This document shows, piece by piece, positions 7,641 to 63,464 of a stretch of DNA of 64,000 nt. Each line of letters begins with the position of its first letter. The stretch's first letter is position 1. The translations under genes were made by a program, and so were the position numbers. Source of the DNA: Botryosphaeria dothidea (taxonomy: Eukaryota; Ascomycota; Dothideomycetes; Botryosphaeriales; Botryosphaeriaceae); assembly GCA_011503125.2 (NCBI GenBank), contig WWBZ02000007.1, positions 744,001 to 808,000 on the forward strand, in the 5' to 3' direction. The notes beneath the pieces were generated by a model. That model was given only the letters and a program-made list of their open reading frames with translations, had not been told where the DNA came from and searched no databases.

Positions 7641-10600
7641 TTAGAGCTCTTGTCGGTCCTTCTGTTTTAGGTACGTGTCCAGCGCTGCTGTGTCCTGTAG
7701 TGCTGATGCCGGTTCCCATGTTGGCCTTGCATACCCTTCCCATTTGACTTGGTACTGGAGTTGGTGCCTCCTTTGCCCTGGTTTTCTTGCCATTCGTTCA
7801 CTTAAGACTGCCTCCACTCTCCATTCGTCTTGACCATCTACTTGAACTGGTGGAGGTTGGTAGTCGTCTTGTTCTTGGCTTGGTAAGGGGTCTGTTCCTG
7901 CTGGCCGGAGTAGGTCTACATTAAAGACGTTGTGTACCGCTCCGGGGATATCCAATTTGTAGCTATGGGATCTAACTACCTCGATAATAGTAAACTTAGC
8001 TGCCTTATCATCGAGCTTCTTGCTTGGCCTATCCGTCCTTAGGTTCTTTAGGTGTAGCCAGACCTTATCACCTACCTTGTACGCAGGGGATGGGTTTCTT
8101 CGCCGGTTTGCTTGCCGTTCCTGTTCTTGTTGGGTATCTGCCATAGCCATCTGTGCCCAGTCCGTTACCTCTTTGATCTTTGCCACGATTACTTCTGCCC
8201 TTGCTACTGGAGAGTCCCTCTGGAGGTCGCCGGGCTGGAGGTCTTCGGATAACTCTAGAGGCTCGAGGTGATATCCGTGGGAGAGAAAGAACGGGCTTGC
8301 CTGTGTTGTAGCCGAGGTCCTCCCATTAAGAGCTAGCTGGACTATCGGTAGCTGGTCCGCCCAGTCTTGTTGGTAGTGGTCCACGAATAGTGCTAGCTTC
8401 CTTTCCACTTCAGTGTTCATCCTCTCCGTTGATCCGTCCGTTTGAGGGTGGTAGGCCGTTGAGATGCGCCTCTTAATCTTAAGCAGTTGACAGATACGTT
8501 GCCAGAGAAGGCTAACGAACTACGTTCCCCTATCAGATACAATTGCCGTTGGGATTCCGTGGTTCCGGTAGAAGCATGTAATAAAGAGCCTTGCAATGGT
8601 TTCCGTCTTAGTATTCGGGCAGGCCTCAAGGGTCACTCCTTTCCCTAGCCTATCGGTGATTACTATAAGCATCTCGCACCCGTTGCTTAATGGTAGGGGC
8701 CCAATAAAGTTAATAGAGATCTCTCTCCATTGACGACTTGGTACTGGTAACGGTTTGAGTAACCCTTGCTTCCGATCCCTCCAGACCTTAGTCCTTCCAC
8801 AGACGTCACAGTTCTTACAAAACCTCCGGATATCGTTAACGAATCCTGGCCAGAAGAAGTGCCTTGCCACGAGGGAGGTAGTTTGAACGCGTCCGGGGTG
8901 TGCCGAGAGGGGAGAGTCATGCATCTCTTGGATAATCCTTGTTCGTAGTGGCTCGGAGTCCGGTACCCATTTCCTTTCCCTAAAGAGGAGGTTTCCTTGA
9001 TAGTCTAGTGAACACTCCGCGATCGAGATCTTGAACTTAGTTGCAAACTCCGGTGGGAAGGTCCTTTCTCCTCGTTGTACTGCTTCCCGGAGTTGCTTTA
9101 GTACTTGGTCTTGTTGGAGTGCCTCTTGCCATTGTTCCTCAAGGGGAGGTGGTTCTTGTCCGAGTTGTCCTGGTCGTGCCTGTCGAGGTTCGACTGCCAT
9201 GGCTTCTTCTGATAATAGCAGGTCTCCGTTATCCCAGTTTCCTTGCTCTTCTGGGTCTTCCGGTGAGCCTGTGTTCAGCACGAGTCCTTAGGCCGTTGTT
9301 TGGAGCAGTTGAGCCGTCCTTTGTTCGAGCCTTTCGTCCATATCCGTGGTTGGTAGGTCCTGGTCCCTTCTTGTCAATGCGTCCGCTAATCCGTTAGTCT
9401 TTCCTGGCGTATATTCAATAATAAAGGAGAAGCGGCTAAGCTCTCTCCACCATCGAATCTGCCTCTCAGAGAGTCTCCTCGCAGTAGTAAAGTACTCTAA
9501 GTTCTTATGATTAGTAAGGATCTTAAACTGGTGTAGCCCCTTTAGTTCAGCATCCCACTGGCGTAAGCACTTGACTACTGCGAGTAGTTCCTTATCGTAG
9601 ATTGGGTAGTTGCATTCCGCGGGTAGGTTCTTTTTCGAGAAGAACGCTACGGGCCGTAGAAAACCATCGTCATCGAACTGTTGGAGCACCCCTCTAGTAC
9701 AGTATCCTAAGGAGTCCGTGGCGAGAATTATCTCCCGTTCCGGGTCGAATTGCATAAGGACCGGTGCCGTGATAAAAGCCTTTTTCAATTTCCTAAACGC
9801 GAGCTCGGTTTCCTGGTTCCATTAGAAGGGCACGTTCTTCCTCGTAAGTGATACTAGAGGGGCTACTAGGTTAGAAAAGCCCTTAATAAAACGCCGATAG
9901 AAGTTCGCAAAACCGAGGAAACCGAGTACGCCCTTTACCGTGGTAGGAGCTTTCTATTCTTGAATTGCTTTGATCTTTTCCGGGTCCATATAGATACCTT
10001 TACCTGCTTCGATAATATACCCAAGATACTTAGTCGACTGGACTTCGAATTCGCATTTCTTTAGGTCGAGTTGTAGACCTGCAGCATCCAATTTCTCTAA
10101 GACCTTATCGACCTTTTCCCGGTGCTCCCGGCGGGATCCGTCCGTGAAGATTAGGATGTCATCTACGTACGCGGAGACAAAATCGTCAAGGAAGTCCTTT
10201 AGGGTCCAATTAATATACCGTTGGAAGGTACTCGGGGCATTTGCTAGTCCAAAAGGTGTCACTAGCCATTCGAAGAGTCCAAATCGGGTCCGGAATGCTG
10301 TCAACCACTCGCTTCCCTCCGCGATTCGTATCCGATGGAAGGCAGCAGTTACATCCAGTTTCGTAAACCATCTTGCTTTGCTAATCCGATTGAGGGTCTC
10401 CTGGATCAGTGGTAGGGGATAGCGGTCCTTTCTCGTAATTCGATTAAGAGCCCGGTAGTCACAGCAGAAGCGTAGGCCTCCGCCTGGTTTCTTGACAAAT
10501 AGTACGGGAGCAGCAGCCGGGGAATTGCTTACCCGGATAAACCCCTTATCGAGTAGTTCGTTAAGAGTCTTCCTAAGTACTAGAAGCTCGTCACGGGACA

Positions 10601-11504
10601 TATTGTATAGGGGTCCCCATGGGGCGTCCGGTATTTTGCCGTTGCTATCCTTTTCCAATTCGATTTGGTGGTCAATTCCAGGCCGGTGCGGTGGGAGTTT
10701 GTCTGCCTCCTTCTTGTCAAATAGGCGTATCCATCGAGGGTCCACCCAGCTAGGTAGCCGGGCCTGAGTATCCGTGGGGGTTTTCTCTTGAAGAGCCTTA
10801 TTAATATCCGCTAGGCTCGCTGTAAAGACTTGGTACCCTTTCTTTTCTCGGTTCCTTAAGAGGTAACTGAAGGCAGAGGCTCCGATAAGCTTGCCCTGAG
10901 GGCTAGGAAGATCCATTGCTTGTTTTACCACTAGCCCTGTGTCCTTAAAGGTAATAGTCCGTTCACTTTAATCGAGTACCGCTTTTTCCTGTACCATCCA
11001 TGGGCTTCCCAACATTAGGTCGCAACCGGAAAGCCTAGGCACGATGTAGAAGAACATGCGCTTCTGGCAGTGGCCTCCAATGTCTACCTCAGCCCAGGCA
11101 ACCTCGTCTATTTTCCATCCTGTAGGTGTAAGTCCGTTCAGTGTCCTTGGGGAGATCTTTATACGCGGGAGGTTGCAGCGTTTAGCAAAACCGTGGCTCA
11201 TAACAGCGTAGAATTCACAACCAGTATCGGCGAGAGCTTTACCGAAAGACTCTTTATTGATCATAACTGGGGTAAGGAGTGAATCTTGTTCTAGCTTACG
11301 TTGCTGCTTGCGCCATTCGTTCCGCACTTCCTGCTTTTCCTCCACTGTGGGCTCCTGCCTGCGATTTTCGACAGGAGCTTTTAGTTTTCCGACTGCTGGG
11401 AGGAGGACTCGTCCTCCAAGTCTTCCAGTTCCGGTCCCACGTGTTCCTCCTGTTGGGTAGGCTTTGCGAGCCTTGCTGGCCTCCTTGGTGGCAGCCATGG
11501 GCAC
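7641..11504 (-). pseudogene. pol: Gypsy A pol: protease, RT, RNase H, integrase, chromodomain
   Basis: One reading frame covers the whole span with five in-frame stops near 10966, 9952, 9822, 9288 and 8520, each explicable as CAA/CAG or TGG turned into TAA/TAG. In order: retropepsin with LADTGCEF; reverse transcriptase with AYVDDILIF intact; RNase H with ILATDSLG and LTNHKNLEYF; an HHCC zinc-finger integrase (HPGRVQ, CDVCGRTK); and a C-terminal chromodomain (YQVKWEGYARPTWEP), which classes it as a chromovirus. The first integrase catalytic Asp is Asn (ISINFIGPLP). The frame is -1 relative to gag, with a 124-nt overlap; no canonical slippery heptamer was found at the junction. Confidence 0.85.
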
Positions 11505-12505
11505 TGGGCAACCCTATGCATAGAGTCGCCACAGCGTAGGCAACGACCCTCATCCTTACGTCTTTGCATCTCTTGCTCGTCTACCCACTTGACACGACGT
11601 CCTTGGGCGGCCCTTGCAGGCCCTGTAGGTTCCCATTCCATTTTATCTTGCTGGGGCGTGGTCGGCTTTGGCTTGGACCCTGGCTGCCTGCCAGTAGACC
11701 CTGCCGAGCCAACTTTATTCTGACCACGCCACCAGTCTTGTTGCCAGCCCTGCTGGGGCTTCTTGCCCGTATTGCGTAGGTTGAACGCTTCCAGTTGGTC
11801 ACTAACACGTTTCAACTCCGTGCAGTAGTCCTCGAAAGACTGGCTAGTATTCCCAAGGCCGATCATACTTCGCTGGAGCTCCTGGCTAAGCCCTGCTTCT
11901 AGGTAGGCCTTAAGGATCTCGTCCGGCCAGTTGGTGCCTCCCGCCTCTAGTACGAGTTTGCGGAATTCGGTGAAGTACTCCATGAAAGGCTTGTTAGTTT
12001 GGCGTAGCTTATGCAGCTTACGTTGGGCCTTCTCTTGCACGTGGGGGTCGCCAAATGATAGGCGTAGCTGATCCAGTAGGCACTGAGCAGTCATGCTAGT
12101 CGTGTTGGTGCTAGCTTGTACCCAGGGCTGTAGCTGACGAGCTGCTTCGCCCCTAAGCCGATTGTGAAGCATAAAAAACTTCGTAGCTTCAGTGCAACTC
12201 GTGTAGTCCACGACGAGTTTGGCTTGGGCCTGGGCAATCCAAGGCTCGAGTTCTTCTCTATTACCCGAAAACTCGGCGAGAGGGCCGAGGTTCTTCGTGG
12301 GGCCTGTCTTGGTGGGGTGGCTGGTGGGTCCTGACTCAGGGGCAGGGGGGTCCGAGGCAATTCCGGCTACCCTAGCCTCCTTTTCTCCGGCCTCCCCTGA
12401 GGGTTGTGTGGAAGGGGTTTGGGCGCCTCCCACCTTCAAGAGTTCCTCCTTCTCCTCCTTAAGCTGCATAACCTCTTGGGTAAGAGTATCCATTCGTGCC
12501 ATCAT
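11381..12505 (-). CDS. gag: Gypsy A gag polyprotein, intact
   Basis: 374 residues. The N-terminus is a coiled coil ([18 protein letters not shown]). A retrotransposon-gag capsid domain follows around residues 90-230 ([19 protein letters not shown] to [11 protein letters not shown]). A basic linker leads to a single CCHC knuckle, [14 protein letters not shown]. It packages the element RNA into virus-like particles. The start is the first Met of the open frame. Unlike pol it has no stop codon, so RIP on this copy was light and uneven. Confidence 0.8.
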
Positions 12506-12582
12506 TTGTAGCAGTAACCGCTTCGTTTCTTGGTTCTCTTGAGCCTGTAGCTCTTGTCCATGCTCTTAAGGACTCATATCGA

Positions 12583-21232: not shown

Positions 21233-24058
21233 TTAGCTTAAGGGTCGAGGTTTCGAAGGGTAACGTTCATAGAACGTATCAAGGGCCTCAAGGTCTTTAA
21301 CAAGGTCGTAAGGTTCCCAGGTTGGTGTCGAGTAACCAGTCCATTTCACGAGGTATTTTGGTTGTCTCCGGGTTGCTTTAACGTCTAGAATCTCTTCTAC
21401 CCGGTACTCTTCTTCGCCGTCAACGATAACGGGCGGGGGCGGAGGTTGGACTTGATCAGGCAAGGGGTCAGAGGCTGCGGGTTCGAGTAAAGAGACGTGG
21501 AATACAGGGTGGACTTTCATCGTCCTTGGTAGTTCTAGGCGATAGGCATGGGTCGAGATCTTCTCTAGGATGGGAAAGGGGCCAAGGCGTTTAAAGTCAA
21601 GTTTATCCGAAGGCCTTGTTGTCGAGATATGCCTTCTTAGGAGCCAAACAAGGTCACCAGGCTTAAAGACGGGTGGCGAAATACGGTCTTTATTGGCCTG
21701 TTCTGCGTAGGCGTCTTGTGCGAATCGAATTTCTTGGCGAAGGTAGTTTTCGAGGTTTTCGAGGTTCTCTTGGAAGAGGCGTAGGGGTTCGAGGGGGGCT
21801 AAGATCGAGTCTTTTTGTAGAATCTCATAACGAGGGTGGAAGCCGTAGTTTGCGAAGAAAGGTGTAACCTTAGTCGTGGTCGAGATCGTATTATTATAAG
21901 CGAATTTAGCAAGGGAGAGAAAGTCGTTCCAATCGTCTTGTTGATACGAAACGTAGGCACGCAGGTATTGTTCGAGAATAGCGTTAATACGCTCTGTCTG
22001 GCCGTCGGTTTGCGGGTGGAAAGCCGTACTAAAGTTAGTCTTAATAGATAGGGATCTACTAAGAGTTCTAGTAAATTTAGAGGTAAAAATCGAGCCGCGG
22101 TCAGCTACGAAGTCGTCGGGTAAGCTATGTAGTCGAAAAACGTAGTCTCGATAAAGCTTAGCAAGCTCTATCGAATCGAGGGTTGTTTGGCAAGGGATAA
22201 AGTGAGCCATTTTAGTTAGTCGATCTACGACTACTAGTATAGCATCGAACGAGTTGGACGTTGGAAGTCCCGTAATCAAATCAAGAGAAACGGATTGCCA
22301 GCGGCGTTGTGGCACTTCAAGGGGTTTCAAATATCTATAGGGGGCATGTCGAGCGGGTTTGATTCTTTGGCAGGTCTTACAGTTTCGTATAAAACGAGCT
22401 ACTGTCTGGCGTAGACCTGGCCACCAGAAATCACGAGTAACGAGTTCAAATGTTGCTGCTTGGCCTGGGTGTCCAGCAGCCGGATGCGAGTGTCGAGAGC
22501 TAATAATCCTTTGGCGGAGGCTTAGATCTTCAGGAATATAGATAAGTCCATTAACTAGTAATAGACCATCGTTATCCTTAGAACATGCGCCTAAATCTAC
22601 CTTAGGATGTCGAAGTACGTGGGTATCGAGTGAAGTAAGGATCTCTTGTCCAAGAGTATCCTCATCGAGTGCTAAGCGAATATCACTAGCCAGAGACGGT
22701 TCTAGCCTAGCGATCAAATGTCGAGTAGAAATAAGGGTCGAAATTTCGAATTTTTCAGAGGTAAGGATCGTAGTAGGGGGTAGGCGCCCCTCTCGAGCAG
22801 GGAGGTCTCCTGACCGTCTTATTAACGCATCCGCGCGTTGATTCTTAGTTCCTGGGCGGTAGACGATCTTAAAGTCGAGTTCTAAGAGTTCAATTGCCCA
22901 GCGTGCTTGCCGACGGTTTAGAATTTGCTTAGAGGCAAAGCTAGTCAAATTCGAGTGATCTGTAAGAACTAGGAGTGGCGAGGAGAGGTTAATAACGAGG
23001 GAACGGTATTTCTTTAGGGCTTCCACAATAGCTAAGAGTTCCTTATCTCCAATACCATAGTTCTGCTCTGCGGGGGTCATTTTCCGAGAGTAGTAGGCGA
23101 TGGGATGTAGGATTCTTCTGCCATCCTCGTAGGTTACCCATTGGGACAAAATTGCGGAGATAATAAAGTCGGATGAGTCGGTTTCAAGGATAGTTTCGAG
23201 TTGGGGGTTGAAGTGTCGGAGGATTGGGTAAGAGCAGAAGGCTTCCTTAAGATAAGTAAATGCCTTATCCTGTTCTTTTCCCCAAGTAAAACGAATATTC
23301 TTAGCTAGGAGCCTAAAGAGGGCTCTAGCTTTTCGAGAGTATCCTTCAATAAATCGTCGGTAAAAGTTTGCAAAGCCAAGGAACGATTGAAGATCTTTAA
23401 CTGAGCGGGGAATCTCCCAGTCTTTTACGGCGGCTACCTTAGCTGGGTCCATAGAGATACCGTCTAGGGAGATAACGAAGCCAAGGAACGTAGTCGAAGT
23501 CGTATAGAAGTCACATTTTTCGCCTTTAACGTATAAGCCTGCTTCACGAAGCTTTTCGAGGACTAATCGGACGTGTTCGTGGTGCTCCTCCTCAGTTTCC
23601 GAGTAGATAAGGATATCATCCAGATAGACGACGCACCAGCGGTCAAGATATTCACGTAGCGTATCGTTAACGAATTGTTGGCAGGTAGCAGGCGCATTCG
23701 TAAGGCCAAAGGGCATAACAAGGTATTCGTATAGGCCATAGCGAGTCCTAAAGGCGGTCAAGTGTTCGGAGCCTTCCTTGATCCGGATAAGGTTATAAGC
23801 ACCGCGAAGGTCGAGTCGAGTAAAAATGCGAGAGCCCTGAAGTTGACGGAGAGTCTCGTTGACTAAGGGGAGTGGATAACGGTTCTTTTTCGTAATACCA
23901 TTCAGTTCGCGATAATCCACGCAAAAACGAAGGCCGCCACCTAGCTTCTTGACAAAGAGAACAGGGGACGCAGAGGATGAGGATGAGGGCCGAATGAAAC
24001 CTTTCTTAAGGTTTTCATCAAGGTATTCACGTAGAGCCTTAAGCTCTAAATCGGACAT
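21233..24058 (-). CDS. pol: Gypsy D pol: intact RT-RNase H-integrase-chromodomain segment
   Basis: 941 open codons from [16 protein letters not shown]; this Met is internal to the pol frame, which continues upstream. Reverse transcriptase has VVYLDDILIYS intact (about residues 140-150). RNase H has ETDSSDFI and LTDHSNLTSF. Integrase has an HHCC finger (HPAAGHPGQ, CKTCQRIK) and the catalytic set DLITGLP, VADRGS and GQTERIN. A chromodomain ([17 protein letters not shown]) closes the protein and, in this clade, targets integration to chromatin marks. All key catalytic residues look present, so this part could still encode enzymes if translated. Confidence 0.85.
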   Translation of the reverse strand: MSDLELKALREYLDENLKKGFIRPSSSSSASPVLFVKKLGGGLRFCVDYRELNGITKKNRYPLPLVNETLRQLQGSRIFTRLDLRGAYNLIRIKEGSEHLTAFRTRYGLYEYLVMPFGLTNAPATCQQFVNDTLREYLDRWCVVYLDDILIYSETEEEHHEHVRLVLEKLREAGLYVKGEKCDFYTTSTTFLGFVISLDGISMDPAKVAAVKDWEIPRSVKDLQSFLGFANFYRRFIEGYSRKARALFRLLAKNIRFTWGKEQDKAFTYLKEAFCSYPILRHFNPQLETILETDSSDFIISAILSQWVTYEDGRRILHPIAYYSRKMTPAEQNYGIGDKELLAIVEALKKYRSLVINLSSPLLVLTDHSNLTSFASKQILNRRQARWAIELLELDFKIVYRPGTKNQRADALIRRSGDLPAREGRLPPTTILTSEKFEISTLISTRHLIARLEPSLASDIRLALDEDTLGQEILTSLDTHVLRHPKVDLGACSKDNDGLLLVNGLIYIPEDLSLRQRIISSRHSHPAAGHPGQAATFELVTRDFWWPGLRQTVARFIRNCKTCQRIKPARHAPYRYLKPLEVPQRRWQSVSLDLITGLPTSNSFDAILVVVDRLTKMAHFIPCQTTLDSIELAKLYRDYVFRLHSLPDDFVADRGSIFTSKFTRTLSRSLSIKTNFSTAFHPQTDGQTERINAILEQYLRAYVSYQQDDWNDFLSLAKFAYNNTISTTTKVTPFFANYGFHPRYEILQKDSILAPLEPLRLFQENLENLENYLRQEIRFAQDAYAEQANKDRISPPVFKPGDLVWLLRRHISTTRPSDKLDFKRLGPFPILEKISTHAYRLELPRTMKVHPVFHVSLLEPAASDPLPDQVQPPPPPVIVDGEEEYRVEEILDVKATRRQPKYLVKWTGYSTPTWEPYDLVKDLEALDTFYERYPSKPRPLS

Positions 24059-24945
24059 TGAGTAGAGAGGACCGAATGGGGGTTTCTTGCCCTCTTCTAA
24101 TGAAATCTCATGATCAATATATCGATGTGGGGGAAGCCTATCGGCCTCTTTCTTCGTAAAGAAGGGAAGAAGATAGTGGAATCGAGCGGGGATTCGTGAG
24201 CGGAGGGTTTCGAGTTCTTGTTCCGGGGTTTGTTGTTCCGTTTTCTTAAGGTTATCAAGGTGTTCTTGGATCTCCTTAATTGATACGGCGTATATCCTAG
24301 TCTTATCTCGTTGGACGTAACGAGTAAGGGCGGCGTAGGATACAGTAGCGCAAGAGATCGAAGGCGAATTAGGAGGCGAGGGGGAAAGCGTAGTTGTGGG
24401 TTGGCGAGTAGGTAAGCAATTTGCTTGGCAAAAAGGGGAGGCGAAGGTAATCGTGTTTTTTGACTATAGGACGTGTGGATCATGTCGTTCTAGCCAGGGT
24501 TTTCCTAGGATAATTGAGTATTGACCGAGCTTAGTTACTTGGAAGGTAACGAGTTCTTGATGCTAATCAATATCAAGTTGAAGGTCGGCCTCGTAGGTAA
24601 TCCGTCCGGCGATGGATCCGTCCGCGAGTTCGAGGGATTCAGCTTGGGGTTTTTGGCGTGTAGGGATCGAATGGGATGTAATAAAGGCATTATCTACAAA
24701 AAGGGACGAGGCACCAGAGTCTAACATAGCCGAAGTTTCGATTTTGTTATTGACTACTGATTTAAGGATAAGGAGCGGACGTTTCCCAAGATCTATAGCA
24801 CGGGGCTGTAGGGTACGGGGTTCTAAAGATGAAAACGAGAGTGTTCCAAGATTTGAAGACGCGAGGGAAGCAAGAATAGAAAACTGATTCGAAGTGGAGA
24901 TCGGACAAGGGCTAGGTAGGTGCCGGGGGCTACCTAGCCTTCTAC
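24059..24945 (-). pseudogene. Gypsy D pol: protease and linker, two stops
   Basis: Same frame as the downstream pol ORF. The retropepsin active site is LDSGAS (Asp codon 24719-24721). TAG codons at 24563-24565 and 24464-24466 interrupt it, from CAG/CAA and TGG respectively. The segment ends in TKKEADRLPPHRYIDHEI, the usual lead-in to gypsy reverse transcriptase. These two stops are the visible lesions separating gag from the enzymes. The separate 128-codon frame at 24097-24483 is out of register and ignored. Confidence 0.75.
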
Positions 24946-24952
24946 GTTTTTT
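24910..24952 (-). promoter_or_regulatory. -1 programmed ribosomal frameshift signal, gypsy D gag-pol
   Basis: Slippery heptamer A-AAA-AAC (24946-24952) is in register with gag. A 6-nt spacer (24940-24945) follows, then a perfect 10-bp hairpin GGCTAGGTAG / CTACCTAGCC (24930-24939 and 24910-24919) with a 10-nt loop. The gag stop TAG (24934-24936) lies inside the stem. Slipping back one base enters the pol frame. Confidence 0.85.
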
Positions 24953-26139
24953 GACACGTAGAGGACTAACGCTGTAGGAGGTGTTATCGGTTGATTTGGG
25001 GTAGTTGGTAACGTAGGTGTATGCGAAGTCGTGTTGAGTTTAAGCCCCTTAGCTTTAGCTTTAGGGCACTCTTTAACCCAATGGTTAGGGTCACCACAGT
25101 AGGCGCAGAGGTTGTTGGCTTTCCGGTAAGCCTTTCGAGCGGTGGCATCTAGTTCCATAGGTTCACCTTGAGGAATCGAGGTTGGCGTGGGAGACGAAGG
25201 TTGGGGAGCAGTTGGTGTAAAGAGAGGAGTCGAGGTAGGGATACGAGTTACGGGCATCTTTTTCTCAATTGTTCGAGCATAGAGTTGGTTGTCCAACGCA
25301 ATGCAGGTTTCAGCGAATTTTCCGAATTCTATTGGCATAGAACGTCCAACAAGAAGGTCCTTAAGATTCTCCTTAAGGCCAAGGCGGAAGTAGTGGATCT
25401 TAACTGCGTTTTCTTTCCAACCGAGGGTCGTGATAAGCGAGAGGAACCGTGAGTAGTAAGCCGAGCAGGACTTGTCTTGTTTGAGTGCGAGGAGGGATCG
25501 TTCGGCCGTTGCGTAAGCGTCAGGATCGTCGAATGCGGCCTTAAGAGCTTGGTAGAAGGACTCATAGTTGTCGAATTCTACAGAGCCGTTCGAAGCAGAG
25601 ACGTAAGGGGCAAACCAGGTATAAGCCGCATCGCGAAGATATGAACCAGCGTAGGTAATCTTAGCTGTATCCGTTGTAAAGGCAGATGGGTCCGAGGCAA
25701 ATTTGAGTTGAAGTTGCGTGGCGAAGTTCTGGAACCGAGTGCGTTCTCCTTTAAAGGGTTCTAGATCCGATACCTTAGGGATGCGGGGACGAGGGGTAGG
25801 AGTTTCCAAAGAAGATACTGTAGACGTAGTAGCCGGAGTGTTGGCAGGGAGGTTCGGGGCTAGTAGTTGGAGTCGGGCGAAGGCTTCATCTTGGCCGAAA
25901 CCGTAGTAGTGAAAGATGCAAGCAACTTGGGCGTTCGTAGCATTCTCAGGGATAACTGGTGAATCGATATCGGATCTTAGGCAGGATTGTCTTCCTCTAG
26001 CGTACGCCTGGCTAAGGGTAACGCGTAGGGAAACCGGGATATCTTCAGGGAAGGTAGGACGAGCATTGACAGGGACAGGGACTTGATCGAGGATTTGGAA
26101 AAGCGTCTCCCAAGGGTCGGGAGGCGGGTCGTTTCCCAT
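24934..26139 (-). CDS. gag: Gypsy D gag polyprotein, intact
   Basis: Start chosen at MGNDPPPDPWETLFQ (26137-26139). The open frame reaches into the LTR to 26376, but that part encodes LTR repeats. It has about 401 residues: an N-terminal region, a gag/capsid domain (LEPFKGERTRFQNFATQLQ to LLALKQDKSCSAYYSRFL), a Ser/Thr/Pro linker, the CCHC knuckle CAYCGDPNHWVKEC and a short tail ending SKNVEG at the frameshift site. Compared with C the knuckle His is retained. Confidence 0.8.
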   Translation of the reverse strand: MGNDPPPDPWETLFQILDQVPVPVNARPTFPEDIPVSLRVTLSQAYARGRQSCLRSDIDSPVIPENATNAQVACIFHYYGFGQDEAFARLQLLAPNLPANTPATTSTVSSLETPTPRPRIPKVSDLEPFKGERTRFQNFATQLQLKFASDPSAFTTDTAKITYAGSYLRDAAYTWFAPYVSASNGSVEFDNYESFYQALKAAFDDPDAYATAERSLLALKQDKSCSAYYSRFLSLITTLGWKENAVKIHYFRLGLKENLKDLLVGRSMPIEFGKFAETCIALDNQLYARTIEKKMPVTRIPTSTPLFTPTAPQPSSPTPTSIPQGEPMELDATARKAYRKANNLCAYCGDPNHWVKECPKAKAKGLKLNTTSHTPTLPTTPNQPITPPTALVLYVSKNVEG

Positions 26140-26204
26140 TTCGAAGGCTATAGTCTTGGGCTTGGACGAGAGCTTTAGGCCTACTAGATAAGAGTCTAGC
26201 AAAA

Positions 26205-26576
26205 TGTAATGAACGGACCTTGGAGGGCGGAGAGACGAGATAACGAAGCCGGTAAAGGCAGTAGGGGTAAAGCAATGCCGAAGTATAAGGGTGTAGTTCA
26301 AAGGGCGAGGGTATGAGGTGCGAAAGACGAGGGACGAGGGACGAGGGACGAGGGAGGCAAGCAAGGTCCAATTCAAGGCGTACCAAGTTATACGCGAGGA
26401 ATACTCATTGCTAGACTAAAGAACTAACTACAAAGCAGAGGGGCGAGCTTTATATACATAAAGAACGAACTAAAATACTAGCTTCCTGATTTATAAGCAG
26501 GTAAGTCTAGATCTAGATTTTAAATCAACGAAGGTAAACGAGAGGTAAGGGGTCTAAGCAAGCCACGTTTATGACA
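26205..26576 (-). repeat. Gypsy D 5' LTR
   Basis: 372 bp, three substitutions from the 3' LTR (one in the terminal TGTAATG/A, one in AAA-G/A-AACT, one in TCT-A/G-GAT). It would drive transcription leftward. Confidence 0.92.
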
Positions 26577-33197: not shown

Positions 33198-33362
33198 GGG
33201 AAGATGGCCGAGCGGTTATGGCGTAAGTTACGCTGCGATCCGCGTTCCACCTCAACACCATCTAACAGCATCACAGGCTAGTTTCAGGTCTTCTGAAAAG
33301 AGTCCCGAAGACAGGGTTTACTAGTTGGGAAACCTTCGTGGGTTCGAGTCCCACTCTTCTCA
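33198..33362 (+). tRNA. tRNA-Leu(CAG) with two introns
   Basis: Exons 33198-33222, 33277-33288 and 33319-33362 give an 81-nt class II tRNA. The acceptor GGGAAGA/TCTTCTC has one G-U pair, the D stem is GCC/GGC, the anticodon stem CTAGT/ACTAG is perfect, and the anticodon is CAG at 33285-33287. A long variable arm follows, then T-arm GTGGG/CCCAC and discriminator A. Intron 2 (33289-33318, 30 nt) is at the canonical 37/38 site and contains CTG able to pair with the anticodon. Intron 1 (33223-33276, 54 nt) lies after base 25 and looks spliceosomal. The A-box (TGGCCGAGCGG) and B-box (GGTTCGAGTCC) are intact, and T7 at 33371-33377 terminates transcription. Confidence 0.88.
33223..33276 (+). other. 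Spliceosomal-type intron inside the tRNA-Leu gene
   Basis: Begins GTAAGT, contains CTAAC (33262-33266) 10 nt before the end and finishes CACAG, the same signals as the mRNA introns in this window. It separates base 25 from base 26. With it present the D stem and anticodon stem cannot be contiguous; without it the cloverleaf is perfect. Confidence 0.75.
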
Positions 33363-35086
33363 TCATGATCTTTTTTTGGTCTTGTATCCTCCATGCTGGT
33401 GGACCGTTCGTTTTGTTGATGTCAGCCGGACGATGCTGGACTCGTGGAAGGCTCCGCTGCGGATCTTGCCGGCCTTGGCACTTCGGCAGCGCCGTTTTAT
33501 GATACAGAAATTCTTCATGCTTGAGCGATGTTGCAGTCAGTCGTTGGAATGGAAGATGACAACAACGTCATGTCGTAGATGCCCTTCCATGAAACTGGTC
33601 CTGTTGCCCACGGACGGACAAAGCCTGTGAAGAGTCCGTGTCGAGTGGTCTTCGTGTTTCCGCCAAGGGATAAGGAGCACAGCTCGTTGCAGCATGCTGC
33701 AAAGTGTGGAAATGCCCCCTCTGCAAAGCCGGCAGCCTTCCTACACTTATCAGCCATGAATCGGTCCTCTTGCTTTAATTGTTCGAGTGTACTTCGCTGT
33801 TCGATACAGGAGCGTATGAATAGCTTTTGAAATGCCTCAGAATTTCGTCCGGGGGGAATTCGAGCCTCGAAAGACCAAGTGACACCTACCAAGCTTCGTA
33901 CAGCCCCTTGAGTTGAGGGCTGAGAAGAAAGAATAGGCGACAGCTAGCCGAATGTTCAGACGTCACAAGTTTTCAGTGCGCCTTGAGACTACAGTGCCAA
34001 GGTGAAACAGACGGAGGGCAAGCATGATTAGTGAGCTGCTGAGCTTTGCGTGCGGAATATGAGCCTGGATTTCGTCGCGAACGGCATGGTTCGATTAAAC
34101 AGTGTCAGTTGTGTGGCAGCAGTCGGTCTGAGGAAGTCCGAAACGCGGTCAGGGAGGCTGAGCCGGGCGGCATTTGCGGACATGGGTGTAGACGGCAGAT
34201 CAGAGGCCGGAGAACATGAAAGCTTAGATGCAATGGCGGGAAAAGTCCAGAAAGAAAGCGGTGATAGAAGAAAGTGGTTGGATGCCGGTGTCTAAACACA
34301 CCGACTGCGGGGCTAATGAAAGCTTGAAAGTTTGCTGATCCGCTTGAATTGAGATAGGCAAGGCGTGCACAGGGTTCCCGCAGTCGGGGCAAACCCTTCC
34401 CCTGTCACGACGGCGGGATGCCGGAGAGATGCAGAGGTTGAGTTTGTTATGCACTCTAGCTTTGCTGGCTGGGGACCCATCTAGTAGAAACGGATAGGCG
34501 TCCGGCGATAAGGATAAGAACACGTACGCTTGGCTGCACGGGGCACACTTTGGGAGAGGCGGCAGGGCTGAAGGCGTTAGTTGACGAATGCCGACCCATC
34601 GCAATTTGGACGTCTGCTGTGCAACCGCGCGGCTTAGCGGGGTTCGGGCGGGTCAAGGTGCCTTGCGGACGCGGTGGAGTGCGAGGGGAGTAGGCGGCAG
34701 GTGGGTGGTTGGCGGGCAGCACTCGTGGCAGCGCGGCGGGCAGCTATCGGCGCGGTTGACAAGCAAATCGTGATGAAACGCGTCGTGAAACGGCCACTGG
34801 AGAGATTTGGGGGGTGGCTGGCCATGGCCACGACTTGGAGGCGGGAGTTGCCCTGTCACTCCGCCCGCACGCCCGCGACGATCATCCATGACGCGTAGCG
34901 TACACGTGACCGGGGGCTGAGCAGCCTGCGCACATAAGGAAGCCGCCAGCAGCCTGCACTCTTCTCTCTGTCTGTTCCGTCACTCCACGCATCGAAACAC
35001 TGAACCTGCCTCTCGCACTCTGCATTTTCTTTGTGCTCACATATTGATTCTCCCCCCTCCGTGACCCCGCTGTCCCTGGGCTCATC
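33363..35086. other. Intergenic; promoter of the PPVY membrane-protein gene at the right end
   Basis: No open frame here has recognisable domains. About 34930-35080 is rich in CT tracts (CTTCTCTCTGTCTG), typical of fungal 5' UTRs just ahead of the start codon at 35087. Confidence 0.6.
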
Positions 35087-57846: not shown

Positions 57847-58828
57847 TTATAATATAACACACCGGTGGTCGCGGCGGTTTCGTCGCCTTCCTGTTGTGCT
57901 GCTACCGCTGCCGCCGCCGCCTCCCCCGGTACTATGCCGACTAGCTGGATGATGTCGTCGGGCGCTGGCGCTGGCGCTGGCGCGGCCGTAGGCATCGCCG
58001 TGTGATCTCGTGCGCTCCATATCTCTCCTGATGATTTGTCTGCAGAGGTCCACGAAAACTTCGTCGACGTTTGCGCGGCGCCTTGCACTGGTTTCGTAGT
58101 AAGGGCAATTGCCCCATGCCTGGCTAACGGCAAATGCGCGTGCGCGCGTGACTGCGCGGTCTTCTTCCAAATCGGATTTGTTGCCCACCAAAACGATTGG
58201 TACACGCTCGTCGTCTTTTATGCGGATTATCTGGTCGCGGAGCTCGGCGAGTTCGTGGAGGGACGTCATGGAGGTGATGCTGAATACGAGGAGGAATCCT
58301 TGGCCGGTTTTCATGTAAAGCTCTCTTGTGGCTGGTTAGCAGGGTGCGGGGCAACTTTGGCGGCGTGGGAGAGGTACCTCATGGCAGCTGTAGAGTGGTT
58401 AGCATAATAGTCGCGCATGAATGCGGAGAAAAACCGGTGGCTTACTGAACTGTTCTGTTCCTGCAGTGTCCAGGATCTCGAGCACTACCGACCGTCCCTA
58501 GAGCGCGCGGAGTCAGATGTCAAGTGTTCTAAATCGAAGGGACAGGTTGCGCCAGAGCTACTAACATCAACGTCGATGGCCTTGCGGTACGAGTCCTCGA
58601 TCGTCGGGTCGTAGGATTCGATCCACACATTCTGAACGAACTGCGCTGTTTGGAAGTCAATTGAACGGTTCCGCGCGCCTGAAGACTGCTGGAAGTTTAC
58701 CTGTAAGACAGCTCTTGCCCACTCCACCTTTTGAACAACGATGTTAGCACTAGCGCAGATCGCGATCGGCGCAAGGGTCTCAGCATACCGGATCCTAGGA
58801 CGACGATGTGGTACTCTCGTTGTGACAT
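57847..58828 (-). CDS. Ras-family GTPase, Rsr1/Bud1 (Rap-like)
   Basis: Six exons: 58789-58828, 58701-58727, 58566-58645, 58446-58497, 58378-58387 (10-nt microexon) and 57847-58324, giving 228 residues. The P-loop is GSGGVGKS (12-19), the effector loop YDPTIEDSY (34-42), switch II DTAGTEQF (59-66), then NKSD (118-121) and ETSA (147-150). A Gly/Ser-rich hypervariable tail rich in Arg ends in CVIL, a CaaX box predicted to be geranylgeranylated. The Rap/Rsr1 assignment rests on TIEDSYRK and the tail; the family sets polarity and budding or branching sites at the plasma membrane. Acceptors of introns 1 and 5 are AAG. The tail includes a (GGCGCT)4 repeat encoding SASASA. Confidence 0.9.
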
Positions 58829-60490: not shown

Positions 60491-63464
60491 ATGCTATTCC
60501 CCAAGCTGCTGGCATTGGCCGCCTCGCTGGTCCCCGCGACCCTCGCTGTCTTTGCCGACGACGCCTACCATGTCGACTACCACTTCGCCCTGCTAGGCCA
60601 GCCCAAACAGCACGCCACCTTCTTCCACCAGCCGCGCCCCGACTCCAAAGCCTCACTGCTCTACACCTTGTCCGATAAGCTCGTACTCGGCGCCGTGAAC
60701 CCCAGAGATGGCTCCGTCGTCTGGAGACAGACCTTGCCCGACGGCTCGAGCTCTGCCGATGGCTGCCTGCGGGCTGGCGAGAACCAGGACACGGTCGTCA
60801 GCGCCGTAGACGGCCAGGTCGCTGCTTGGGACGCCGCAGACGGCAAGCTTGTCTGGAGTACCACCTTCAAGGATGTCTCCGTGAAGGACCTGGAGGTCCT
60901 TGAGCTCGCCGATGCTTCGGCAGCTGCCAGCGGCGTCAAGGACGTTGTTGTCTTGTTCGGCGGTAGCACCTCTGTTGTGCGAAGGCTGGATGGCCAAACT
61001 GGCACTGTGAAGTGGGAGTTTGAGGACAACAGGTAGTTCCACTTCGCGGGAAATCATCCATGATGCTAACACGATATGCAGTGGCGACGCTCCGTTTCAA
61101 ATCTCGTCCTCGGCTACCGCTGTCTACTCCGTCTCATTGCACTCCACCATGCTCGGTGGCCTCAAACTCAAGGTCACTGCCATAAACCCCGTTACCGGCC
61201 AGAAAATCGATCAACACACCCTTTCCTCAGACAGCGATGTCTCAAGTGTGGATGACATACTGTTCGTCGGTGCCAACACCGCTTCTCCGCTACTAGCTTG
61301 GACGGACAAGGCATTCAAGACATTGAAAGTGAACATCATTGGAACCAAGGGTGTCTCCACGTTCAACATCGAGAACAGCAGCGGGGAAGAGATACAGAAG
61401 GTTGTGCTCCATGCACCGCACAGCATCAACTCTCTGCCGCACTTCCTTGTCCATTACCAGACTGCGGGCAGCCATTGGGCTGAAGTATACCACGCAGACC
61501 TCAAGGCTTCCTCCATTTCCAAGGCTTACGACCTGCCGAAACTGGCTGGCAAGGGAGCTTTTGCGACTAGTACCACGGATGCGAACGTTTACTTTACCAG
61601 GATCACCGCTGAGGAAGTCATTGTGGTTTCATCCGCATCACATGGCGTTTTGGGACGATGGCCGATTAAGAATGCAGTCTTCGATGACTCGTTTTATCCT
61701 CTGCACGCCGTGTCTGAGGTAGCCGTGCGTGAGGGAAGCGCATCGGCCGTAAGATCCGCGGTATACCTTTCGAGAGGAACCTGGGATCTTCTCCGCAATG
61801 GTGACCCCACCTGGACCCGACCGGAAGTTCTCGCAGGGGCCCTTGAAGCCATTTGGGCTGATCTTCCGGGCGAAGAATCCTTGGCCCAGGAATTGGAAAT
61901 TGAGACACATCAAAGCATTCTAGCCGCCTATGTCCACAGAGTTACGAGGCACCTCAGGGATCTGGAGCATCTCCCGGATTTCCTGCAAACCCTTCCCAAT
62001 CGATTCTTGGCTCAGGATTCAGCTTCCGATGTTCTGGACAAGGCAAGACGAGACACCTTCGGCCTTAACAAACCCGTCGTCGTTGCAACTGAGTCCGGCC
62101 GTTTTCTGGCAGTTTCTGGTGGGTCCATTGCATGGAATAACGATATCTTGGAACTTTTCTCCGGCGAGAAGGTTGAGGAAGTCGAACTGGAGGTCAACTC
62201 CAAGGGCCAAATCGCCGCCGTCTTTCCGCAAATCAATCGCCACGTCCTCCTCAATGCAACTACCGGAGATCTCATCCGGAGTGTGCCGTTGAATTTGGCG
62301 CTTGAACTTGACGGTGAAGAAGCTACAAGTACTCCAGAAAAATCCGGGTTTACCTTCAAGGTCGTCGACGGCGAGATCAAAGGCTTCTGGTCTGAATCTG
62401 AATTAGCATGGAGATTTGCTCCTGCTGGTGGTGAACGCATTCTCGGCGTTACTCCCCGACCCGTCAATGATCCGGTGGCATCCATCGGCAAGGTTCTTGG
62501 AGATCGCCGTGTCCTCTATAAGTATCTCAACCCGAATTTGGTCTTGGTGACCGCAGTAGCCGACCCGGATACTCTGTCTGTCTATCTGCTGGATACTGTA
62601 TCAGGTGCCCTCTTATGGCAAGCTTCTCACGAGGGTGTGGATACTACCCAAACCATCGCTACTGCGCTATCTGAAAACTGGCTCACATACTCCTTCACGC
62701 TCGGGTCCCTCGAGACTCCCTCCAAGGGGCACCAACTAGTCGTTGCGGAATTCTTCGAGTCTGATCTGCCCAATGATCGCGGCCCATTCGGCGCCGCCTC
62801 AAACTATTCTGCAATTCGGCCCTTCGCTGGGGTTGTCGGCGAATCCGCCAAGCCGCACGTCCTTTCGCAGACCTATCATATTCCGGAGCCTATCTCCCAC
62901 ATGGCCGTAACCCAGACGGCACAAGGCATCACTTCCAAGTGGCTTCTAGTTACTCTTCCGCAGTCTAACTCGATTGTCGGAATTCCTAGGCAGATCCTGG
63001 ACCCGCGGCGACCTGTTGGTCGCGACCCGACCGCAGAAGAGGCCGCCGAGGGCCTCATGCGATACACTCCTGTCATCGAATTCAATCCGGCGCAATACCT
63101 AAACCACCAAAGGGAGGTCCTGGGCGTGAAGAAGGTCATTACCTCGCCCGCGCTTCTAGAGAGTACCAGCCTTGTCTTTGCGTACGGAATGGATGTGTTC
63201 GGGACAAGAGTGTCTCCTAGCTTTGCATTTGATATCTTGGGTAAGGGGTTCAACCGTTTTCAGCTTTTGACAACGGTTGCGGCCCTTTTTGTTGGGGTGT
63301 TATTTGTGGCGCCGTTGGTGAGTTTAACCTTATCTCCTTTCTCCCTGAACATTGCGCGAGCATGTTCCTCGTATCGCTTTGCACAATATCTCCTGACCGT
63401 GCATAACTGATGAGTTTCATAGGTGCGGAGGAAGCAGATCAACGCCAGATGGCAGATAGTGTAA
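60491..63464 (+). CDS. EMC1: ER membrane protein complex subunit 1
   Basis: Three exons: 60491-61032, 61082-63317 and 63423-63464, giving 939 residues, near the family norm. A signal peptide (MLFPKLLALAASLVPATLAVF) leads into a lumenal beta-propeller region (NPRDGSVVWRQTLPDG, DAADGKLVWSTTF, RRLDGQTGTVKWEF, PQQ-like blades). The conserved C-terminal EMC1 domain (formerly DUF1620) includes TYHIPEPISHMAVTQTAQGI, SKWLLVTLPQSNSIVGIPR, DPRRPVGRDPT and FAYGMDVFGTRVSPS. A membrane segment (FQLLTTVAALFVGVLFVAPL) follows, then a short cytosolic tail VRRKQINARWQIV coded by the last exon. EMC inserts tail-anchored and polytopic proteins into the ER. Introns are GTAGTT...ATGCAG (49 nt) and GTGAGT...CATAG (105 nt). 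Confidence 0.95.

Follow-up and report, generated by a model that had tools for sequence, protein, structure and literature searches.

Putative spliceosomal introns in nuclear tRNA genes of one fungal genome

It is commonly taught that the introns of nuclear tRNA genes are the task of a protein endonuclease and the introns of mRNAs that of the spliceosome. The locus studied here raises the question of whether this division always holds. In the analysed window, by which we mean the whole stretch of 64,000 nucleotides (positions 744001-808000 of contig C3 in a Botryosphaeriaceae genome of 51.7 Mb and 78 contigs), a nuclear tRNA-Leu(CAG) gene carries, besides the canonical intron at position 37/38, a second insert in the D arm. 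As argued below from the sequence, this insert is very probably a U2-type spliceosomal intron of the ordinary kind, and it belongs to a set of no fewer than 25, spread over no fewer than 20 nuclear tRNA genes of the genome.

The coordinates given in the original prediction for the gene, its two introns and the downstream T7 run agree with the sequence (Table 1), and the three fungal spliceosomal signals that it described in a 54-nt insert after base 25, namely GTAAGT, CTAAC and CACAG, are present, with the branch A likely at 33265, 11 nt 5' of the last base of the intron. When both inserts are removed, the restored 81-nt class II cloverleaf that had been claimed is indeed obtained: ARAGORN calls it tRNA-Leu(cag), and 17 of 17 pairs form in the acceptor, anticodon and T stems, the D stem and the variable arm being left out of the count. 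The A and B boxes, also predicted to be intact, are both whole by sequence; we take them, from the consensus, to be TGGCCGAGCGG (33205..33215, +), lying 5' of the insert, and GGTTCGAGTCC (33341..33351, +). The junction of the D-arm intron can slide by one base, with the two registers giving the same product, and the register with GT...AG ends was adopted. On one strand of the window all three signals occur together at a length of 50-60 at 15 of the 64,000 positions; this rarity, together with the presence of the same insert at the same place in two paralogues, puts the insert beyond chance. It is noted that no tRNA was detected in the window by ARAGORN in bacterial mode with introns off or by Rfam at the gathering threshold.

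Table 1. Features of the tRNA-Leu(CAG) gene and of the control mRNA introns, in window coordinates
Feature	Position	Strand	Basis
Nuclear tRNA-Leu(CAG) gene, two introns	33198..33362	+	sequence, ARAGORN on spliced form, stem pairs, paralogues
Exon 1 (nt 1-25)	33198..33222	+	sequence
54-nt spliceosomal-type intron, after nt 25	33223..33276	+	signals, paralogues
Donor GTAAGTT of the D-arm intron	33223..33229	+	same in 3/3 Leu copies
Branch-site motif TCTAACA (CTAAC 33262-33266)	33261..33267	+	same in 3/3 Leu copies
Acceptor ACAG (insert end CACAG)	33273..33276	+	same in 3/3 Leu copies
Exon 2 (nt 26-37), anticodon CAG 33285-33287	33277..33288	+	sequence, ARAGORN
Canonical 37/38 intron (30 nt), spliceosomal signal set absent	33289..33318	+	motif test
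Exon 3	33319..33362	+	sequence
T7, probable Pol III terminator	33371..33377	+	sequence
EMC1 mRNA intron (control)	61033-61081		protein alignment and GT-AG
Five mRNA introns of a Ras-type gene (control)	58325-58788	-	protein alignment and GT-AG

A genome search with the window gene gives two further Leu-CAG genes (C12:1397552-1397717, -; C8:497677-497838, -), so that the number of CAG-decoding genes, a point raised with the original prediction, comes to three found, all three with the insert. In the alignment the insert stands at the identical base in each, and GTAAGTT, TCTAACA and the junction ACAG/GCTAGT are unchanged in the three copies while the intron interior has diverged, with 26 of 61 alignment columns identical overall. 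Between the C8 copy and the window copy three acceptor pairs differ, each on both sides and with the pairing preserved. Intact Leu-CAG copies, which the prediction had named as speaking against it, were found neither in the genome search with the spliced tRNA nor in that with a pattern of the Leu A box and D arm, neither search being exhaustive. The former would miss a diverged copy, because two of the known copies gave the last exon only and C8 went unreported. The latter gave 10 matches, consisting of the three CAG genes, one gene each for CAA, TAA and TAG, which have the canonical intron only, and four non-tRNA sites.

The insert is not peculiar to the Leu genes. With tight motif scans the total comes to 20 genes with 25 spliceosomal-type introns, 22 of them distinct, of 50-60 nt and located either in the D arm, where they follow nt 18, 19, 24 or 25 (our own numbering), or in the T loop, where they follow G57. 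Six families are involved: Leu-CAG, initiator Met (iMet), Ala-AGC, Pro-CGG, Asp-GTC and Arg-TCT. T-loop introns (nine distinct) are present in 11 genes, and nine genes have D-arm introns only. The canonical 37/38 intron is present in 17 of the 20 genes, being absent only from three iMet genes. This census is a lower bound; the scans covered some A-box types, GTAAG or GTAAGT donors, and one T-loop site with GTNAG.

Among the four iMet genes found, three carry the insert (C47:1330625, +; C1:751582, +; C1:6143290, -; DNA search), and one of the family, misnamed Cys(aca) by ARAGORN with introns, is split by GTAAGT...CACTAAC...ATAG after base 24; the fourth (C29:539543, +) has no insert and shows the empty site. 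All seven Ala-AGC genes found have a D-loop intron and four of them a T-loop intron too. Donor patterns 3' of the A box gave the Ala genes C58:1190759 (-) and C36:2123899 (+) as well as the Pro-CGG gene C12:1472445 (+), and in the latter and in one Ala gene a second insert was recognised by eye in the T loop after G57, so that one of the two Pro-CGG genes found carries both D-arm and T-loop inserts. A T-loop pattern then matched nine sites, all tRNA genes (four Asp-GTC, four Ala-AGC including that on C36, and one Pro), and a T-loop pattern with GTNAG only matched 33, namely those nine, two Arg-TCT genes identical to each other (C36:3806406, C78:2920748), the only members of that family found, and 22 non-tRNA sites. 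When spliced exons were used as the query, two more Ala-AGC genes appeared, which have the D-loop intron only (C69, C1), along with insert-free genes of Asp (C3:383309, C29:1397058, C7:826994) and Pro-CGG (C12:1452908), the Asp-GTC family thus having the T-loop insert in four of seven genes found.

The insert-free iMet, Asp and Pro paralogues show empty sites that end at the predicted junctions. By eye, the Asp gene on C29, without the insert, and that on C12, with it, are otherwise nearly the same gene, and the pair looks like a picture of clean intron gain or loss. No insert-free copy of Ala-AGC or Arg-TCT was found in genome searches, which were not exhaustive and missed known diverged or interrupted copies; a strongly changed intact Ala copy could be missed, because the spliced-exon search skipped the four Ala genes with two inserts.

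The signals were then considered over all inserts. A start of the form GT[ATG][AG]G, a YTRAY motif 9-15 nt from the end and an HAG end are present together in 22 of the 22 distinct inserts and in none of the 14 distinct canonical introns that coexist with them in the same genes. When the interiors are shuffled (2000 shuffles), the branch motif appears in a mean of 1.9 and a maximum of 8 of the 22. All 25 introns have GT...AG ends and fit the fungal donor consensus, with the donors GTAAGT/A/C/G, GTAGGT, GTTAGT and GTGAGT and the acceptors CAG, TAG and AAG. It should be noted that the GT-AG register was picked wherever a junction can slide, and that the donor was included in the search patterns, the branch motif and the acceptor being absent from every pattern that yielded matches; conservation of the donor across families is therefore partly selected, which leaves donor conservation among the Leu copies unaffected. 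The six mRNA introns of the window used as controls are 49-68 nt long, comparable to the length of the tRNA inserts, and carry a branch motif that lies 11-16 nt before the end, with a second one at 22 in one of them; they also use GTTAGT and AAG, as do some of the tRNA introns. The spliced translation of the Ras-type gene closely matches a Neofusicoccum parvum protein, and the EMC1 protein encoded at 61 kb shares 99% identity with a protein from a 3-kb metagenome contig, 89% with that of Macrophomina phaseolina (Botryosphaeriaceae, Dothideomycetes) and 88% with that of N. parvum. The GT and AG of these control introns are not independent observations, because protein alignment and GT-AG were used to place the boundaries. 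The spliceosomal reading of the original prediction is thus supported by the signals kept in three Leu copies, by the five further tRNA families and by the empty sites at the predicted junctions.

Reversed-pattern controls were run for each donor pattern. Of the matches to the pattern 3' of the A box in the Pro search, five of six are tRNA genes (reversed control 1), and of those to the pattern yielding the Ala genes, two of two (control 0); a TAGCTCA-type donor pattern gave no match in the genome (control 2). Another donor pattern gave seven tRNA genes among 10 matches (control 10), the T-loop pattern with GTTCGA nine among nine (control 4), and the GTNAG-only T-loop pattern 11 among 33 (control 42). 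For the 10-match and 33-match patterns, it is the tRNA context that exceeds the control, as the counts alone do not. Three of the 22 other matches (L109, L112, L119) have a five-base stem that can pair after the AG, and were rejected for the lack of A58 and, by eye, of tRNA context; it is noted that the Asp gene on C47 (L097), a true gene, does not pass the strict stem test on account of its mismatch. The pattern of D arm and donor gave no match in viral contigs, and its two matches in bacterial contigs (L046, L047) were discarded, with no tRNA found there by ARAGORN with introns.

Based on the sequence, the following course may be proposed for transcription, splicing, the order of the steps and the use of the promoter boxes. 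RNA polymerase III (Pol III), directed by the A and B boxes, would transcribe the tRNA gene as far as the T run. On the pre-tRNA, the sequences GTAAGT and CTAAC would serve as recognition sites of U1 and U2, after which the spliceosome would take out the D-arm intron and, in other genes, the T-loop intron. The restored tRNA body would then be readable by the tRNA endonuclease, which would cut the 37/38 intron where there is one, and RNase P and tRNase Z would trim the tRNA ends.

Another possibility is that the introns are spliceosomal and the genes are transcribed by Pol II, with the transcripts spliced with a cap and the T run irrelevant. Splicing is in general coupled to Pol II, which would favour this possibility, as would the splitting of the exonic B box GGTTCGANTCC by the insert after G57 in the 11 T-loop genes. 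Against it, the A box is not interrupted by a D-arm insert (which the search patterns partly ensure), the nine genes that have only D-arm introns keep an unbroken B box, and all 20 genes are followed by a T4+ run at a distance of 3-43 nt. Moreover, all 11 T-loop introns contain a B-box-like stretch (GTTCGAATC, GTTCGATTCC, GGTTCAAAC and similar), weak in some, that starts 12-15 nt in. GTTCGA was required in the nine-match T-loop pattern; in the GTNAG-only pattern it was not, and every T-loop intron found with the latter has such a stretch. The B-box score, out of 11, is 7-10 in T-loop introns and 6-8 in D-arm introns. The likeness is clear against shuffles in five of the nine distinct T-loop introns, where 0-15 of 500 shuffles reach the score, and not clear in the other four, three from Asp and one from Arg, where 55-359 of 500 do so. 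In the Asp T-loop introns CGTTCGAA is kept in four of four with the adjacent positions drifting, GTTCGA being a search condition there. We consider transcription of these genes by Pol II to be very improbable, and we infer, though less firmly than the splicing, that in the T-loop genes the intron supplies the B box, so that its B-box-like stretch probably takes over the binding of TFIIIC.

Pol III transcripts have no m7G cap, and the exons are short, the first exons before D-arm introns having only 17-25 nt and the last exons after T-loop introns 15-16 nt. Short exons and a Pol III transcript would count against the spliceosomal model, with a precedent for the splicing of a Pol III transcript being given by the U6 snRNA gene of Schizosaccharomyces pombe, which likewise contains a spliceosomal intron, an mRNA-type one thought to come from reverse splicing (PMC10484740). 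The U6 RNA differs in being part of the spliceosome rather than a tRNA and in having a gamma-methyl phosphate cap (PMC10484740). In this fungus, by comparison, six tRNA families are concerned with a total of no fewer than 20 genes, most of them with a second type of intron. Fungal U3 snoRNA genes, which encode another small structured RNA, likewise have spliceosomal introns of the normal type; these are present in most Pezizomycotina examined and U3 is called a Pol III gene, which differs from the present case in not being a tRNA and in having no adjacent endonuclease intron (PMC5832005).

It may also be proposed that the tRNA splicing endonuclease removes the inserts as ectopic introns, in the manner known from the red alga Cyanidioschyzon merolae and from crenarchaea; this corresponds to the second endonuclease intron at a new site that the original prediction had kept as an alternative. 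Introns of that sort in the D and T arms do exist elsewhere, and the statement in the prediction that all known nuclear tRNA introns sit at 37/38 is not quite right, for C. merolae has nuclear tRNA introns away from that position, in which a bulge-helix-bulge is held critical (PMC4090602, PMC3978253). Like the genes studied here, those of C. merolae (nuclear) and Guillardia theta (nucleomorph) have introns in the D or T arm and several per tRNA gene; those of C. merolae differ in depending on a bulge-helix-bulge and the endonuclease, and those of G. theta in being 3-24 nt long and of unknown mechanism, and the cited passages mention no GT-branch-AG signals for either (PMC4090602, PMC3978253). 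The 17 genes with a 37/38 intron would also be substrates of the same enzyme. However, the 4-bp central helix of a bulge-helix-bulge is complete in none of the 22 inserts, with three of four pairs at best. This test is weak, because only one of the 14 canonical introns has such a helix; the eukaryotic enzyme, however, is described as locating its cut sites by measuring from the tRNA body (PMC4090602). Besides, the inserts occupy the D arm or T loop rather than 37/38, where introns for that enzyme are expected, and cutting by the endonuclease would leave unexplained the GT...AG ends and the branch motif found at 9-15 nt in every distinct insert. Endonuclease cutting is thus very improbable.

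A further proposal is that these are broken tRNA genes, in which the inserts stay in and intact copies do the work. In a review, insertions in the arms of nuclear tRNA genes are as a rule treated as pseudogenes (PMC4090602). Intact copies of iMet (one), Asp (three) and Pro-CGG (one) agree with this proposal and count against the spliceosomal model, and one stem position is unpaired in three of the 20 spliced forms, namely the Asp gene on C47 (T49) and both Arg genes (acc2), which may be decaying. By contrast, ARAGORN gives the expected anticodon for 20 of 20 spliced forms and all 17 counted stem pairs are present in 17 of them, and nine stem pairs differ among the paralogues in both partners yet still pair (three in Leu, three in iMet, one in Ala, two in Pro). 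The splice signals are kept while the interiors drift, which would be unexpected of broken genes. Within the limits of the searches no insert-free copy of Ala-AGC, Leu-CAG or Arg-TCT was found, which makes splicing look necessary. Decayed exons with an insert in one of many copies, the mark of a tRNA pseudogene, are thus not what the sequences suggest, and we find it hardly credible that the genes are simply broken.

Finally, a group I or group II intron is dismissed by size, the inserts of 50-60 nt facing a catalytic core of some hundreds of nt, and Rfam gives no match in the window at the gathering threshold.

Such tRNA genes are easily overlooked in annotation. With introns allowed, ARAGORN finds seven of the 20 unspliced genes and gives the expected anticodon for one; part of this poor detection is its own weakness, because it misnames six of the 20 when the canonical intron alone remains. 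A whole-genome Rfam tRNA search gave at least 61 matches (63 of 1497 candidates scored), with none of those listed among the 20 genes. At ten loci searched with E up to 0.1, tRNA matches were obtained in three insert-free Asp genes and a Thr gene, and the Ala gene of L125 was matched at 35.5 bits despite its intron; no tRNA match was obtained in the intron-bearing L068, L075, L093, L096 and L123, with L096 showing weak tmRNA matches below the Rfam cut-off. This comparison is no clean test, because L131, a Pro gene without spliceosomal introns, is also unmatched.

The best reading, then, is that this fungal genome has a class of nuclear tRNA genes interrupted by spliceosomal introns, most of which would require the tRNA endonuclease as well. 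Spliceosomal introns, Pol III genes and tRNA introns are each known as ingredients, and no known kind of tRNA intron was found to work in this way. In the open-access literature, among the matches listed and judged by title and start of abstract, there is no report of spliceosomal introns in nuclear tRNA genes; an earlier report may be present in subscription papers or preprints. Making these tRNAs, including that for the start codon, should need the spliceosome, often besides the tRNA-cutting enzyme. We consider it likely that an essential set of nuclear tRNAs is spliceosome-dependent in this lineage, that some pre-tRNAs with three introns need both machineries, and that the T-loop introns carry the B box, a part of the promoter thus being spliced out.

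If this is true, it would be expected that the translation of Ala GCU/GCC, a good part of that of Leu CUG and part of the supply of initiator tRNA are tied to the activity of the spliceosome, with translation capacity thereby linked to splicing. The division of labour between endonuclease and spliceosome would be broken in many tRNA genes, and the spliceosome could act on short Pol III transcripts whose first exons measure 17-25 nt. The paralogues with and without the intron also offer naturally occurring material for work on how introns are gained outside protein genes and on reverse splicing into abundant RNAs.

Some further observations were made. Identical tRNA genes with identical flanks lie on different contigs, for Ala on C3 and C12 (L091, L094) and for Arg on C36 and C78 (L123, L124), and reflect either recent duplication or duplication in the assembly. 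A truncated 3' half of an Ala tRNA (L127, C36:2124200-2124400) lies some 200 bases past the three-intron Ala gene on C36. As to anticodon-loop introns, tRNA-Lys(CTT) has a short one in L053 and L054 (by eye) and none in L009-L012 of the same genome; long canonical introns are present in two Gly-GCC-like genes (66 nt; L063 and L064, one called Thr by ARAGORN) and in Arg-TCT (87 nt; L123). In the window itself, long open reading frames at 21233-24058 (-) and 24934-26376 (-) resemble, by eye on the translation, Ty3/gypsy-type reverse transcriptase/integrase and gag, and adjacent open frames at 7644-12565 (-), with a gag-like protein at 11381-12505, are by eye perhaps a broken retroelement.
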